A DNA stretch of 64,000 nt from Thermocoleostomius sinensis A174. Its GTDB lineage: Bacteria; Cyanobacteriota; Cyanobacteriia; Elainellales; Elainellaceae. The notes under the pieces were generated by a model. The model saw only the letters and a list, made by a program, of their open reading frames with translations, searched no databases and was not told where the DNA came from. Position numbers and translations under genes: made by a program. The number at the start of each line of letters is the position of its first letter. Within the stretch, counting starts at the first letter, position 1. Location of the stretch: the NCBI RefSeq assembly GCF_026802175.1, contig NZ_CP113797.1, positions 4,131,026 through 4,195,025 of the forward strand, written 5' to 3'. Shown in pieces: positions 950-7,993 of the stretch.

Positions 950-3514
950 ATGACGTACACAGCTACATCGGTTCAGCCCGGTACAGGTGTGCTTTTAACA
1001 GCCCCACTGTCTGGAAAATTGGTGCCGATCGAACAGGTGCCTGATCCAGTCTTTGCCCAAAAAATGGTCGGAGATGGCATCTCCATTGATCCGGTTAGTC
1101 AAAGTTTGCTTGCTCCATGTGACGGTGAAGTCATTCAGTTGCATCCGTCCCATCATGCCATCACCCTTAAAACAGCGAATGATTTAGAAGTGTTGATGCA
1201 TATTGGCTTGGATACCGTGACGCTACGGGGTGAAGGCTTTACGCCTAAGGTGAAAGTTGGTGATCAAGTGCAGATGGGCGATCGGTTAATTGATTTTGAT
1301 GCCGATTATGTGGCACTAAATGCCAAAAGCTTGTTAACGCAAATTGTCATTACCAACAGCGAGCAAGTCACCACGTTCATACCGCGATCGGGCAATGTTA
1401 CCGCTGGGCGCGATCCGGTGTTGGAGTTAGCCTTTGCGGGTACAGAGGCAACGGCTCCGGCAACCGACAACCATGATGTGGCTACATCCGAAGCGATCGT
1501 TATTCCTAATCCAACGGGACTTCATGCTCGACCAGCCGCAGTCTTAGCCAATTTAGCGAAGAAGTACAAATCTGATATTCGCTTGAAATATGGCGACAAG
1601 AAGACCAATGTGCGCAGCGTTGTTGGAGTGATGGGGTTGTCGATCGACAAGGGTGACACTGTATCCCTAGAAGCAACTGGGCCAGATGCGGCGGCGGCCA
1701 TTGCAGAGTTGACCGAAGCATTGCGATCGGGGTTAGGTGAAGCTGGGGTAACTCCTGTGGCCACAACGACCAGCCAAGCAGCGGCAGATGTGTCTGCTCC
1801 ACCTCCTCGACCGCGATCGGACGATCCCAATTTAGTGTTGGGGGTGGCGGCCTCTCCTGGGGTGGCGGTGGGCTATTTGCATCGGGTACAACAACAGGAC
1901 ATTGCCGTTACCGAACAGTCCGACAATCCTGCTGCTGAACGCCGTCGCCTTGAGCAAGCGATCGCCCAGGCAAAGCTGGAAATTGAAGCGCTACGGGCCA
2001 AGGTGCATGGGCAGGGCAATCCGCAAAAGGCGGCAATTTTCTCGGCCCATCAGGAATTGCTGGAAGACCCTGAACTGGTAGATGCAACCATGCAGGCGAT
2101 TGATCACGGCAAGAGTGCAGCCTATGCTTGGAAGCGAACCTATAGCGAGCAAGCCGATCAACTCGCGAGGTTGACAAACGAACTGCTGGCGCAACGGGCG
2201 AATGACTTACGCGATGTAGGGGGGCGAGTGCTGCGAATTCTCACTGGCGTCAGCACTGAGACGACCCACTATCCGGAAAACACCATTTTGGCCGCCGAAG
2301 ATCTGACGCCCTCGGATATGGCCACGCTCGATCGCTCTAAGGTGGTGGGCTTTTGTACGGTGGCTGGTGGCGCGACCTCCCATGTGGCGATTCTGGCTCG
2401 ATCGATGGACATTCCTGCCATTGCTGGGTCAGAGCCGCGCGTGCTGGAACTATCCAACGGTACACCTGTGATTTTAGATGGCAGCAAGGGCACCCTGCGG
2501 CTGCATCCATCCTCCGACGAAATGGAGCGGGTCAAGCAACGCCTGGTGCGCATCAAAGCTAAGCGCGAGCGGGATTTTGCCAGCAAAGATCAGCCTGCGA
2601 TGACGATTGATGGCCATCGCATGGAAATAGTTGCCAATATTGGCAATGTCGAAGATGCCAAACAAGCCGTAGCATTGGGTGGCGAAGGTGTCGGGCTATT
2701 GCGATCGGAGTTTGTGTTTATGGAGCGATCAGCGGCCCCCACCGAAGAGGAACAGACCGATATTTACTCGGCGGTGGCGCAGATCCTGGGACCGGAACGC
2801 CCGTTGATCATTCGAACTTTAGATGTAGGCGGCGATAAACCCCTGCCCTATTTACCAATGCCCCATGAAGAAAATCCCTTCCTAGGGGAACGCGGGGTGC
2901 GGATTGGCTTCGATCGCCCGGAAATTTTACGCACTCAGCTACGCGCCATTTTGCGATCGTCTGGCTTGGGCAATGTCCGCGTCATGTTCCCGATGATCGC
3001 TCGTTTAGAGGAATTCCGCATGGCCAAAGGCATGTTAGAAGAAGAACGCCAAAAGCTGGGCGTTGCGCCTATTCCCGTCGGCATTATGGTAGAAGTGCCA
3101 TCGGCGGCGGTGATCGCCAATCAATTTGCCAAAGAAGCCGACTTTTTCTCGGTGGGAACCAACGATCTGACCCAATATACCCTGGCTATGGATCGGGGGC
3201 ATCCTAAACTCGCTCCTTACTGCGATGGACTTGATCCAGCCGTGCTCTCGCTAATTGGCATGGCGGCAAAGGCAGCTAATCAACAGGGCAAATGGTGTGG
3301 CATCTGTGGTGGCATTGGTAGTGATCCGCAAGCAGTGCCGCTGTTAATTGGGTTAGGCGTCAAAGAACTCAGTGTCAGTATTCCTACCATTCCCAGCGTC
3401 AAGGCCCAAGTGCGCGATTTGAGTTATGCAGAGTGTCAACGCTTGGCAGCCCAAGCCCTTGCTGCCGACACAGCCGCCGATGTGCGCAATTTGAGTCCAC
3501 TCGCTGAGGAATAA
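950..3514 (+). CDS. nagF: PTS EIIA(Glc/Nag)-HPr-EI fusion protein
   Basis: This 854-residue protein combines the soluble phosphorelay of a sugar PTS. Phosphate would pass from PEP to EI, HPr, EIIA and then the membrane EIIB. Residues ~10-160 are a glucose-type EIIA with His69 and catalytic His84 (LMHIGLDTV). Residues ~182-265 are HPr with His192 (TGLHARPAA) and a serine in the regulatory position ([10 protein letters not shown]). An Ala/Pro-rich linker follows, then EI from ~294, with phospho-histidine His478 (GGATSHVAI), the PEP-site motif [11 protein letters not shown] and the C-terminal Cys motif CGICGG. Domain order and size match the NagF proteins of Pseudomonas-type GlcNAc PTS. Upstream sequence reads gattacgATG without a strong SD. 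It is the first gene of the operon, 22 bp before nagB. CGATCG sites are frequent, so it is not compositionally foreign. The PTS family is certain; GlcNAc specificity is inferred from neighbours. Confidence 0.93.
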
Positions 3515-3536
3515 CCGGGAACTACTGGGAACCACC

Positions 3537-4352
3537 ATGCGGCTAATTGTTTGCGAAAAAGAGATTGCACCCTGGGCAGCGAGGTATATCAAACAGCGGA
3601 TCGAAGACTTTGCTCCCACGAGCGATCGACCCTTTGTATTGGGGTTACCGACGGGCAGCACTCCATTGAAGCTATATCAAAAATTGATTGAGTTTCATCA
3701 GCAGGGCTTGAGTTTTAAGCATGTGGTGACGTTCAATATGGACGAGTATGTGGGGCTACCAGAAGATCATCCGCAAAGCTATCACACCTACATGCATCAA
3801 CATCTGTTTGACCACGTTGATATTCCCCGCGAAAACATTCACATCTTGAACGGCAACGCCCCCGATCTTGAAGCGGAATGTCAGCAGTACGAAGACCAAA
3901 TCAAGGCATTTGGTGGTGTTGAATTATTCGTGGGCGGTGTGGGTGAAGACGGCCACATTGCCTTCAACGAACCAGGTTCTTCGTTGCAATCGCGCACCCG
4001 TGTCAAACCCTTGACTTACAGCACCCGCCTAGCTAACGCTCGCTTTTTTGACAACGATTTAGAAAAAGTACCCAAACTGGCCCTTACCGTTGGCGTTGGC
4101 ACAATCATGGACGCCCGCGAAGTCATGATTCTGGTACAGGGATTTCACAAATCGATCGCCCTTGCCCACGCGATCGAAGCAGGGATTAACCACATGTGGA
4201 CTATTTCAGCCTTGCAACTGCATCCGCACAGCATCGTAGTCTGCGACGAAGACGCCACCATGGAACTCAAAATTAAAACCGTGAAATACTTCAAACAACT
4301 AGAACAAGAAATGCCGACGTTGAGGGAATCGGAAATCGGAAATCGAGAATAA
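3537..4352 (+). CDS. nagB: Glucosamine-6-phosphate deaminase
   Basis: Converts glucosamine-6-phosphate to fructose-6-phosphate and ammonium, the last step of GlcNAc catabolism. At 271 residues it matches the bacterial family (~266). Visible motifs are the phosphate loop [10 protein letters not shown] (38-47), NMDEYVGL with Asp69, and [12 protein letters not shown] with Asp138, His140 and Glu145, the catalytic base/proton relay region. It starts 22 bp after the PTS fusion gene and is clearly cotranscribed. The last eight codons (ESEIGNRE) are written in a GGAATCGGAAATC purine repeat that continues the dispersed repeat family seen elsewhere in the window, so the C-terminus may be a repeat-derived extension. 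Product call is very secure. Confidence 0.95.
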
Positions 4353-4472
4353 CGCCATTGCCCTTTTCTCCGACCCTGTTCCTACCAGTGAGAGCAGAGA
4401 GACAGAAAAGGGGGCAATCTCCTTTCTCAAACCCACTCCCCACTCCTGATTCCCGACACCCCACTTCCTGCC
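4353..4472. repeat. Purine/pyrimidine dispersed repeat, nagB-nagA spacer
   Basis: A short 120-bp spacer inside the operon. Its middle (about 4368-4432, with 'gaccctgttcc' and 'gtgagagcag') resembles the repeat at 19533-19640. The pyrimidine-rich run toward nagA mirrors the purine-rich end of nagB, so the RNA could fold over the nagA start. Confidence 0.5.
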
Positions 4473-5660
4473 ATGTACGCTCTAACTAACTGCACCCTCT
4501 ACACCGGACACCAAATCCTCACCGATCGCGCCCTTCTGATCGAGGGTTCGCGGATTGTTGAGATTGTCCCACAGGCACACCTGCTGCCTGATTGGACAAT
4601 TAATCAGACAATCGATCAAACGATCGATTTGGCAGGAAACTCGGTTGCACCAGGATTCATTGATTTGCAACTAAATGGCTGTGGTGGGGTCATGTTCAAC
4701 GACTGCATTACGGCCGCGACGCTGGAGACAATGCATTACACCAACCTGAAATCAGGAACAACGAGCTTTCTGCCGACGTTGATTACCACATCAGATCACG
4801 AGATGCAGGTCGCGTTGGAATTGGTGCGGCACTATCGTCAACACCATCCCCATCGGGTACTGGGGCTGCACTTGGAGGGACCCTATCTCAATCCCAAACG
4901 CAAGGGTATTCACAACGAGTCCTATATTCGTCCACCCGATCGCACCATGCTCCAGCACATTGCTGAGTATGGACGCGAGACGGTCAAGCTAGTGACGTTG
5001 GCTCCCGAACAAGCACAACCGGATGAAATTCGGCTGCTAACTGAGGCGGGAATTGTGGTATCGGGCGGACATACAGATGCCACCTATGAGCAGGCGATCG
5101 CCGGATTTGAGGCAGGGGTGAGCATGGTGACTCACCTATTCAACGCCATGACGCCGTGGTTGGGGCGCAGTCCGGGCATGGTGGGGGCGGTATTTAGTCG
5201 CGGTGATATTTACGCTGGCATCATTGCCGACGGCTTTCATGTTCATTATGAGTCGATTCGGTTGGCGCACTGCATTCTCCAGGACAGACTGATTCTGGTG
5301 ACGGATGCAACCCCTCCCGTGGGGACGAATATGCCTGCCTTCTGGATTGGCGGACAGGAGGTGTTTTACCAAAACGGTAAGTGTGTGTCAGCCGATGGCA
5401 CATTGGGCGGCTCGGCGCTCACCTTAATCGAAGCGGTTGCAAACTGTGTGCGCTATGTGGGGATTCCGCTACCGGAAGCACTGCGGATGGCGACACTCTA
5501 TCCCGCTAGGGCGATCGGCGTGGATAACATCCTGGGACAGATCGCTCCAGGATATGTGGCTAACTTGGTGATTTTCGATGCCAATTTCCAGATTCAGGGC
5601 CTGGTGCAGGCGGGGCAATATACCGCCGATTGTGCCTCTGTGTTGTCTAACTGTTCCTGA
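4473..5660 (+). CDS. nagA: N-acetylglucosamine-6-phosphate deacetylase
   Basis: Amidohydrolase that removes acetate from GlcNAc-6-phosphate, the product of the PTS permease, to feed NagB. The 395-residue protein has APGFIDLQLNGCGG near residue 60, the metal/substrate motif HLEGPYLNPKRKG (~133-145), GHTDATYEQA (~194), HLFNAM (~216), DGFHVH and the catalytic aspartate in LVTDATPPVG (~273). Length is slightly above the E. coli enzyme (382). No SD is obvious because the upstream 20 bp are pyrimidine-rich repeat sequence. It lies between nagB and the permease and is part of the same operon. Confidence 0.95.
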   Translation: MYALTNCTLYTGHQILTDRALLIEGSRIVEIVPQAHLLPDWTINQTIDQTIDLAGNSVAPGFIDLQLNGCGGVMFNDCITAATLETMHYTNLKSGTTSFLPTLITTSDHEMQVALELVRHYRQHHPHRVLGLHLEGPYLNPKRKGIHNESYIRPPDRTMLQHIAEYGRETVKLVTLAPEQAQPDEIRLLTEAGIVVSGGHTDATYEQAIAGFEAGVSMVTHLFNAMTPWLGRSPGMVGAVFSRGDIYAGIIADGFHVHYESIRLAHCILQDRLILVTDATPPVGTNMPAFWIGGQEVFYQNGKCVSADGTLGGSALTLIEAVANCVRYVGIPLPEALRMATLYPARAIGVDNILGQIAPGYVANLVIFDANFQIQGLVQAGQYTADCASVLSNCS

Positions 5661-5733
5661 CTTCCTTCGTTTATCTGTTCTAAAGGTTGATATTAGCTTG
5701 TGATCTAAATCCATTACTTCACTGTGACTCCTT

Positions 5734-7608
5734 ATGTGGAAAAAAGCATTTGCTATCTTGCAACAGCTTGGAAAAGCGTTAATGCTGCCGGTTTCAGTAC
5801 TGCCCGTAGCGGGGTTGCTGCTGGGACTGGGCAGTGCTCGTCTCATTGAGATTGAAAACCTGCAAAAAGGAATCATTCAAACGGCTAAATTTGGATTTAT
5901 TCCAGACTGGCTGGCCAGCATCATGAAAGCGTCGGGGGATGCCATCTTTGGCAATTTGGCCATCATTTTTGCCATTGCCGTGACGATCGGCTTTACGGGC
6001 AATGATGGGGCCTCGGCGGTGGCGGTAATTGTCGGCTATGTGGTGTTTCTGGCAACAATCGGGGCTGCGTCAACAGGTTTGTTTGGCGTTGATCCAGACA
6101 GCCTCAAATCTGTGATGGGCATCAGCACACTGGATACGGGGGTGTTCGGCGGCTTAATCATGGGTGGTATTGCGGCCTACCTATTCAACCGCTTTTTTCG
6201 GGTCAAACTGCCGCAATATCTGGGCTTCTTTGCAGGTAAGCGATCGGTCCCCATTCTCACGGCGCTAGCCGCCATTGTGGTAGGAACGCTGATGAGTATC
6301 ATCTGGCCGCCAATCGGCAATGGCATTGATGCCTTCGCCAATGCAGCCGCAGCAGGAGACAACACGGCAACAACGGCGGCTATCTACGGTGTCATTGAAC
6401 GCTTGCTGTTACCGTTTGGATTACACCACATTTGGAACGTTCCTTTCTTCTTCCAAATTGGTTCCTTTACCGATCCGATTACGGGCGATGTTGTCCGAGG
6501 GGATATCAACCGCTTCTTTGCGGGCGACACTACAGCCGGAATTTTGGGTGGTGCGTATTGGTTCAAGATGTTTGGCTTGCCAGCAGCGGCGATCGCCATG
6601 TGGCGGGCAGCTTATCCTCAGAATCGAGCCAAAGTTAGCGGGTTACTGCTATCGGCTGCGTTCACTTCATTCTTAACCGGTATCACCGAACCGATCGAAT
6701 TTTCCTTCATGTTTGTCGCCCTCCCGCTTTATTTCATACATGCAGCGATCGCCGGAGTCTGTCAGTGGCTATTCCAAACATTGGGCGGCAAAATGGGCTT
6801 CACCTTTTCTCAAGGTGGCATTGATTTCCTGTTGTTTAGCGGCTTGCCCAATGCTCAACGCACTTGGCTCATTCCCTTGTTGGGGCTGCTGGTGTTTGCG
6901 CCGCTTTACTATGCCATTTTCTACATTGCCATCCGACGATTCGACTTCAAAACCCCAGGACGCGAAGAAGAAACAGGCGATGCGGTAGTCGGCCCTGGCG
7001 GCGACTCAGAACTTTCCCGCGAATTGGTACGAGCGTTTGGTGGACGTGGCAACATCGCCAACCTAGATGCCTGTATTACGCGCCTACGGGTCGGTGTCAA
7101 TGACAAAAGCCGCGTCAGTAAAGAACGCTTGAAACAATTAGGGGCAACGGGTGTTCTGGAAGTGGGCAATAGCGTCCAGGCTATCTTTGGGCCGCGATCG
7201 GAAAACTTGAAAACTGACATGGCCGAATACTTGAAAACCGCCGGAGCCGAAGCCGATGAGGCCTATGCTCCCAGTGCAGTTGAGAGCGTCGCAGCAACCA
7301 ACGGAGCCGCCCGCGATGGAGTTGCAGATGGGGCCGTTGAGATTGCTGATGATCCAGACGCTACTCGGAAAGTGCAAGATATGATTATTGCGCTGGGTGG
7401 TCGCCGCAACATCCGCACTGTAGATATGGCAGCTTTAACTCGCTTGCGGTTACAGGTTGCAGACGATGCCAATGTGAATGAAGAAGCGCTGCGATCGGCG
7501 GGTGTGGATGGCATTATGCACTTGCCCGATCATCGCTATCATCTCATTGTTGGACTTCATGCTGACCAGTATGCCCAAGAGATGAAGAAGCAACTGGCAA
7601 ACGTCTAG
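5734..7608 (+). CDS. nagE: PTS N-acetylglucosamine permease EIIC-EIIB with a degenerate second EIIB
   Basis: This 624-residue membrane permease imports and phosphorylates the amino sugar. Residues 1-~405 are a glucose/GlcNAc-type EIIC with about ten hydrophobic segments, the [18 protein letters not shown] region (226-243) and the signature GITEPIEF (316-323). Residues ~424-502 are EIIB with phospho-acceptor Cys447 (DACITRLRV). After a ~40-residue Ala-rich linker comes a second EIIB-like domain (~543-622). It keeps the fold pattern ([25 protein letters not shown]), but the acceptor position is alanine (Ala567). No EIIA is fused, consistent with EIIA lying in the EI fusion protein. GlcNAc specificity is inferred from nagA/nagB; glucose specificity is the alternative. 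Confidence 0.92.
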
Positions 7609-7623
7609 GTTTGGATCGCTGGT

Positions 7624-7650
7624 AGGGTAGGCACTGCCCACCCTATCTAT
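7624..7650 (+). repeat. Hairpin repeat after nag operon
   Basis: An imperfect hairpin (AGGGTAGGC...GCCCACCCT) follows the permease stop. No T-run follows, so a terminator role is uncertain. The 'GGTAGGGTAGGC' word recurs at about 61965 ('gtagggtaggcaggg'), which suggests a dispersed repeat. Confidence 0.4.
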
Positions 7651-7660
7651 CCAGGCACGG

Positions 7661-7993
7661 TCATCGCATGGGTTTTGGTCGTTTGCCTCCAATTGCTTGT
7701 TCAATAATAGAATAGAGTTTGGTTTGTTGACGATCCTGAACCGCAGGTAGCAACCGCCACTGAGCCACAGGTCGGGGAATGAAGGTAAGTAGCATCCACC
7801 ACTCCTCGTTTGTTTGAGAAACTCCCCAAGCGAACTGATCATCTAACTTTTGAACGGCGTATCCTTGGGCTAACAGCGCTTGAGCGATCGTCTCACCTTG
7901 TTGAGACAAGAGGACATCGTTGATTAAATCACTCGTTTCGTGACCGCTGATTTGGTCACTAGGAAAATATCTAATCAAGGGGCCGCCCTCCAT
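7661..7993 (-). CDS. Hypothetical protein (110 aa)
   Basis: I do not recognise this protein. The minus frame remains open up to 8122, but I prefer the ATG at 7993 (MEGGPLIRYFPSD). The longer version would overlap almost all of the well-supported 64-residue gene upstream, and its extra N-terminus is a basic, low-complexity stretch. The product is soluble, with a Trp-rich patch (NEEWWMLL) and a basic C-terminus. It overlaps the stop of the upstream gene by 23 bp, suggesting translational coupling, although no strong SD is visible. A frameshift joining the two genes into one ~170-residue protein is the main alternative. Confidence 0.5.
   Translation of the reverse strand: MEGGPLIRYFPSDQISGHETSDLINDVLLSQQGETIAQALLAQGYAVQKLDDQFAWGVSQTNEEWWMLLTFIPRPVAQWRLLPAVQDRQQTKLYSIIEQAIGGKRPKPMR

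Follow-up and report, generated by a model that had tools for sequence, protein, structure and literature searches.

A cysteine-less second EIIB domain in a glucose-type PTS permease of Thermocoleostomius sinensis and its association with fused IIA(Glc)-HPr-Enzyme I donors

A PTS donor that is fused to HPr and Enzyme I has to reach EIIB in this tethered state, and how such a donor is directed to its permease is, to our knowledge, not settled. Among the closest described systems is Escherichia coli FruA, whose duplicated IIB' domain, according to the excerpted text of PMC6872149, serves protein-protein interaction and not phosphoryl transfer. The excerpts of PMC2405797 add that full activity of FruA needs both IIB domains, and that IIA-Glu fusions branch inside the FruB group; in the same excerpts it was stated, in 2008, that cyanobacteria lack PTS. 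For Ralstonia eutropha H16, the part of PMC3222305 concerned describes an EIIBC-Nag permease, NagE, together with a fused EI-HPr-EIIA protein, NagF. We found no description of a glucose-class, phosphate-dead second EIIB in the open-licence PMC literature.

The locus reported here lies in a window of 64,000 nt (the whole stretch of DNA that was analysed) from the genome of Thermocoleostomius sinensis A174 (5.81 Mb, one contig). An operon-like run of genes, all on the + strand, covers 950-7608. It starts with a fused phosphoryl donor, IIA(Glc)-HPr-Enzyme I (950..3514, 854 aa; Pfam PF00358 at residues 16-139, PF00381 at 181-259, and PF05524/PF00391/PF02896 at 298-824), followed by a nagB-like gene for a glucosamine-6-phosphate deaminase-like protein (3537..4352, PF01182) and a nagA-like gene for an N-acetylglucosamine-6-phosphate deacetylase-like protein (4473..5660, PF01979 and PF22643 NagA_N). 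The last gene (5734..7608) was assigned from its open reading frame, Pfam and NCBIfam as a PTS permease of 624 aa with the domain order EIIC-EIIB1-EIIB2. Its EIIC transport domain comprises residues 13-341 (5770..6756; PF02378, 250 bits) and the phosphorylatable EIIB1 residues 426-504 (7009..7245; PF00367, and 132 bits with our EIIB1 HMM), with the codon of Cys447 at 7072-7074. A flexible linker (7246..7359) leads to the cysteine-less EIIB2 (7360..7605, residues ~543-624; Ala567 codon at 7432-7434). As in the R. eutropha system, insofar as PMC3222305 describes it, the permease would be served by a protein in which IIA, HPr and EI are fused, and which is here the proposed partner of EIIB2. The excerpt differs in describing R. 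eutropha NagE as EIIBC only and in leaving a second EIIB unmentioned, the comparison being one by description.

The permease had been called NagE in an earlier note on this DNA. We consider this name doubtful, since the permease passes the glucose IIBC model TIGR02002 (654.4 bits, cut-off 591.8) and fails the NagE model TIGR01998 (481.1 bits, cut-off 553.2); the name draws on the operon context only. The nagA and nagB neighbours point to amino sugars, and the family models say that the permease is of the glucose type. EIIC (PF02378), PF00367 with Cys447, and TIGR02002 place it in the glucose class of PTS EIICB permeases, and its EIIC and EIIB1 are homologous to those of E. coli PtsG (EIICB-Glc) by TIGR02002 and by Foldseek matches to 8qsr and 3bp3. 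The PtsG-like systems compared differ in that no IIA-HPr-EI fusion is found at their 55 single-EIIB loci (within L024-L081, nearly all enterobacterial by title).

The same note had claimed that the permease ends in a second EIIB-like domain with alanine in place of the phosphocysteine, and both parts of this claim hold. In a whole-genome search PF00367 matches the permease twice, with 50 and 34.7 bits; both matches exceed the cut-off, and the match of EIIB2 is therefore above chance. EIIB2 alone (7336-7605) passes PF00367 with 33.6 bits (cut-off 27), and falls below the cut-off of the longer NCBIfam domain model TIGR00826 (30.4 bits against 45.75). Our EIIB2 HMM, to which this sequence itself contributed, gives it 116 bits. 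An AlphaFold2 model of the domain alone, from an input alignment of 44 rows that included EIIB1 domains, has an EIIB fold (pLDDT 89.6, pTM 0.80). Foldseek matches this model to 3bp3 (E. coli EIIB), 1o2f (IIA-Glc/IIB-Glc) and 3bp8 (EIIB with Mlc) at rmsd 1.1-1.2, the predicted fold being closest to that of E. coli EIIB-Glc. The fold is thus predicted with confidence to be kept. The only cysteines of the permease are residues 343 and 447, and EIIB2 has none. Its motif D-M-A-A-L-T-R-L-R starts at residue 564, and Ala567 aligns with Cys447 of EIIB1 through a one-residue insertion. The same alignment is found in the full-length AlphaFold2 model, which was made with tandem permeases only in the alignment: the strand of EIIB1 at 441-447 ends at Cys447, and that of EIIB2 at 560-567, one residue longer, ends at Ala567. 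Because it has no cysteine, EIIB2 should be unable to carry a phosphoryl group in the usual way.

The homolog comparison that had been proposed shows that the cysteine-less tandem EIIB is conserved. We compared 65 second domains (52 fused, 4 free and 9 from later loci, L190 being excluded), with the active-site position counted back from the TR motif and L014 and L018 read by eye. The place two before this motif is Ala in 57 of the 65 and Cys in none, and the EIIB1 cysteine is kept in 126/126 permeases compared. A sequencing error is very unlikely given that Ala is conserved there in relatives, and we rejected both error and chance. It could be argued that EIIB2 handles phosphate through another residue, or through a displaced cysteine in relatives: 10 of the 65 second domains have Cys one residue earlier than the usual place, and across an alignment of 44 EIIB1 and EIIB2 rows the Arg that follows Thr does not vary. 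However, EIIB2 of the T. sinensis permease contains no cysteine at all and most relatives have Ala in the aligned place, so that we regard this reading as very improbable. A different case was seen in Sansalvadorimonas verongulae (G388, L190), in which a NagE-like permease adjoins the fusion donor and its second EIIB has a normal Cys. As the domains closest to this second EIIB are EIIB1 domains, it is a separate duplication.

Among the best 80 of 575 relatives in named genomes, 23 permeases have a tandem EIIB and 55 a single EIIB; the loci L013 and L051 run off the ends of their contigs. All cyanobacteria in this sample are tandem except the cut L013. In a draw of 386 cyanobacterial genomes, 6 have a match to the permease, T. 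sinensis included and one of them (G255) with fragments only. Thus, PTS of the IIA-HPr-EI/tandem-EIIB kind is shown in a few cyanobacteria. The G255 copy (L185, ~7351-7783) is decayed, with EIIC and EIIB2 fragments in different frames, and no full IIA-HPr-EI fusion of this type was found among that genome's matches. In Pseudomonadota, 56/398 genomes match the permease at E 1e-60, 22 of them tandem and 34 single, based on the best 3 candidates per genome and on assignment by HMM where loci were taken and by span elsewhere. A further draw mostly repeated the Pseudomonadota genomes, only G389 being new. EIIB2 is present in several phyla; its occurrence in the best 80 of 575 relatives, in cyanobacteria, in Pseudomonadota and in the groups of G391 and G392 led us to reject an oddity of the strain. 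One metagenome-assembled genome (L014) is labelled Phycisphaerales; this name is probably wrong, since the listed genomes of its 'phylum' draw coincide with the Pseudomonadota draw.

In a tree of EIIB domains, the 52 fused EIIB2 domains form one side of a branch (SH-aLRT 99), apart from 76 EIIB1 domains, on a short alignment and by a quick method that left several long branches. The EIIB1 domains of those tandem permeases are spread over glucose-like and NagE-like parts of the tree. We therefore rejected a fresh duplication in each lineage, as all 52 fused EIIB2 fall on the same side. As for selection, dN/dS of EIIB2 is defined for 12 pairs and lies at 0.06-0.25 in all but two of them, L181/L182 (0.56) and L157/L158 (0.94). 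Values for EIIB1 are mostly 0.006-0.08, with exceptions in L014/L016 (0.10), L157/L158 (0.39) and the two permeases of L002 (0.41). For the T. sinensis sequence and its nearest relatives, synonymous sites are at or near saturation. From these values EIIB2 is looser than EIIB1, yet mostly under purifying selection. The domain might be a decaying relic of a domain duplication that was retained by chance, and its lower constraint than EIIB1 in most close pairs, the two high values, and the strong erosion of EIIB2 to near loss in L161, L171 and L254 are what such a relic would leave. The low dN/dS of the remaining pairs argues against it, as do the occurrence of EIIB2 in several phyla and its retention as a separate gene in four genomes, and we judge a relic to be quite improbable.

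We then consider how EIIB2 is distributed relative to the fused donor. In the locus table, 50 tandem permeases adjoin the fusion, whereas of the single permeases 21 are without it and 1 has it. For the table and the tree, 50 of the 58 loci L024-L081 were dropped as near-copies; among these 58, only L032 and L059 are tandem and only L032, L051 and L059 have the fusion. L007, L013, L023 and L051 were excluded from the counts, and the presence of the fusion was set by hand for L001 (the T. sinensis locus) and for L002, whose fusion is cut at the contig start with residues 464-853 seen. Of 7 mismatches in the locus comparison, 6 are due to contig or locus ends and one is real (L142, p14897). An independent-pairs test gave 3 well-supported pairs, 2 concordant and 1 neutral, which are too few changes for significance. 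A second EIIB, weak in one case, is also present in five named loci on plasmids that have the fusion; the six plasmid loci considered were hand-picked from the 30 listed of 86 records matched by EIIB2 and hence are no independent test.

Since the locus table came from permease searches, we also ran a search with the donor as query. Over three genome draws, a second EIIB adjoins 38/38 IIA(Glc)-HPr-EI fusions, two of the second EIIBs being degenerate (L161 with 12.9 bits and L171 with 9.7 bits). In Pseudomonadota there are 27 fusions in 22/398 genomes, of which 23 adjoin a tandem permease and 4 occur with a free EIIB2 gene; scoring covered the best 6 candidates in each genome, fusions were full length with EI, and the draw was the one already searched with the permease. 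The group of G391 has 2 fusions in 178 genomes and that of G392 has 9 in 173, all with a second EIIB, as counted at E up to 1e-120 only. For 3 of the 38 fusions (G387, G391, G392) the genomes had first been found through the permease. A single-EIIB, NagE-like permease that adjoins an N-acetylmuramic acid 6-phosphate etherase gene was observed in Azospirillum B510 and A. lipoferum (L142:14897-16459 and L256:12502-13971), and the fusion donor near it already has a tandem permease in both loci. Because a single-EIIB permease is near the fusion in these two loci, the fusion may serve a permease without an EIIB2 of its own.

The four loci with a free gene (all Pseudomonadota) have a cysteine-less EIIB2 gene of 92-97 aa directly behind the fusion gene: L186:8530-8805 (G633), L187 (G526), L188 (G706) and L189 (G682). 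Its start lies 2 bases past the fusion stop in three of them (L186, L188, L189); for L187 the choice of start codon puts it at 2 or 14 bases. The adjoining permease has the usual single EIIB, at its N-terminus, and in all four loci scores above the cut-off of the trehalose model (591.95 bits), with 708.8, 706.4, 711.3 and 713.3 bits. The free EIIB2 of L186 is below the Pfam and NCBIfam domain cut-offs (20.3 against 27 and 24.2 against 45.75 bits, respectively), and this copy thus illustrates how a small free protein in trehalose operons falls under the cut-offs of both databases. The N-terminal stretch of the free EIIB2 looks amphipathic by eye.

Second, we compared distances among domains. 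With 59 permeases, the partial distance correlation of EIIB2 with the donor given EIIC is 0.60 (0/999 permutations as high), and that of EIIB2 with EIIC given the donor is 0.06; for EIIB1 the corresponding values are 0.40 with the donor and 0.74 with EIIC. Such correlations overstate significance on related sequences, with shared ancestry not fully removed. The four free EIIB2 correlate weakly with donor distance (0.21-0.36). When donor domains were taken separately (57 permeases), the values were 0.175 for IIA and 0.138 for the N-terminal part of EI, neither being singled out. These results suggest that the divergence of EIIB2 tracks the fusion donor and not EIIC. They bear on an architectural role, in which EIIB2 would pack on EIIB1 or EIIC, or aid dimer assembly, with the donor uninvolved. 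Such a role would account for EIIB2 keeping its EIIB fold in the model and being usually fused behind EIIB1 (52 of the 56 first compared). The near-zero correlation with EIIC given the donor, however, speaks against it, and so do the linker, disordered at residues 514-536 of the full-length model (pLDDT <50), and the fact that EIIB2 is a protein by itself beside the trehalose EIIBC permeases, whose EIIB is N-terminal. We therefore hold an architectural role to be unlikely.

A related observation was made in the cyanobacterium CCP2 (L002:3380-7314), where a NagE-like and a glucose-like tandem-EIIB permease lie side by side behind nagB-like and nagA-like genes. The two permeases are 38% identical in EIIB1, 49% in EIIC and 55% in EIIB2; by local alignment the values are 43% for EIIB1 and 59% for EIIB2, an EIIB2 excess of 16 points. 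In a control of 304 pairs of NagE-like and cyanobacterial permeases, the EIIB2 excess is never above ~13 points, EIIB2 exceeds EIIB1 in 132/304, and the mean identities are about equal (39% for EIIB2, 41% for EIIB1). Set against 16 cyanobacterial permeases, the NagE-like permease of L002 is closer in EIIB2 than in EIIB1 in 16/16. Compared to 19 Pseudomonadota NagE-like permeases (the eroded L160, L161 and L171 excluded), EIIB1 is the closer domain in 15 and EIIB2 in 3, with 1 tie.

We propose that EIIB2 is probably a permanently unphosphorylated docking domain for the fused IIA(Glc)-HPr-EI donor, with binding inferred. In this mechanism EIIB2 would bind the donor from its own operon; the contact would most likely be made by IIA, the natural partner of which is an EIIB surface. 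With the donor held near the membrane, Cys447 of EIIB1 would meet IIA~P at a higher local concentration and could then phosphorylate the incoming sugar. The earlier note had suggested a regulatory or docking module that senses EIIA~P or EIIB~P. The docking half gains indirect support from the second EIIB next to all 38 fusions, the divergence that follows the fusion and the free gene behind the fusion gene; for the sensing half we obtained no support.

Sensing belongs to a broader alternative, in which EIIB2 would be a regulatory sensor that either binds and sequesters a transcriptional regulator, as EIIB-Glc does with Mlc, or responds to phosphorylated EIIA or EIIB. In its favour, the structures that the EIIB2 model resembles include 3bp8, in which EIIB is bound to Mlc, and in one relative, Azospirillum ramasamyi, a ROK-family gene adjoins the fusion. 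Mlc-type repressors are ~400 aa long. The T. sinensis genome has two matches in the ROK family, the only regulator family surveyed, and both are far from the operon, in frames of 331 and 337 aa, which are shorter than this. No fitting ROK repressor being near the operon, Mlc-type sequestration was rejected. Moreover, EIIB2 would not itself be switchable by phosphorylation, nor could it report sugar flux, since it is without the phosphocysteine, and the four free genes stand directly behind the donor gene. A sensor thus seems to us improbable.

Returning to docking, EIIB2 would be the donor's own portable adaptor, in most cases as a permease tail and sometimes as a separate gene behind the donor gene; the gene order is observed and the function inferred. 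FruA offers a parallel. As far as the excerpts of PMC6872149 and PMC2405797 go, IIB' is likewise a duplicated, non-transferring IIB that works with a multidomain IIA donor, FruB (IIA-FPr). By its sequence EIIB2 is also a second IIB beside a catalytic one, its presumed lack of transfer following from the missing Cys, and in view of co-occurrence and co-divergence it may bind its multidomain IIA donor as IIB' does. The two differ in family, IIB' being of the fructose type (PF02302) and EIIB2 of the glucose type (PF00367), with the EIIB-Glc fold in its AlphaFold2 model and Foldseek matches. A Pfam search of the permease at E up to 1 gives PTS_EIIC and PTS_EIIB only, and places no part of it in the fructose-type IIB family. 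Unlike IIB', EIIB2 is C-terminal to EIIB1 and can be encoded alone. We hold it to be an even question whether fused IIA(Glc)-HPr-EI donors have in a phosphate-dead EIIB-Glc a portable adaptor dedicated to them, which is either the tail of permeases of various groups or a free protein (~92-97 aa) whose gene immediately follows that of the donor, and which arose in parallel to the fructose-type IIB'. If true, the fusion of the donor chain into a single protein would have a general solution in IIB domains that dock but carry no phosphate. Donor targeting would then have a direct and testable answer in a phosphate-dead EIIB that accompanies the donor, which would also be a second case beside FruA IIB'.

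T. sinensis has a fructose PTS as well (L193:3210-8929, ~383209-388928), with a IIA-HPr-EI fusion (IIA PF00359), a PfkB-family kinase and a permease. This permease matches PF02302 twice, both IIB domains having Cys. Although its second IIB is not cysteine-less, the fructose operon fits the general link between a fused donor and a doubled IIB.
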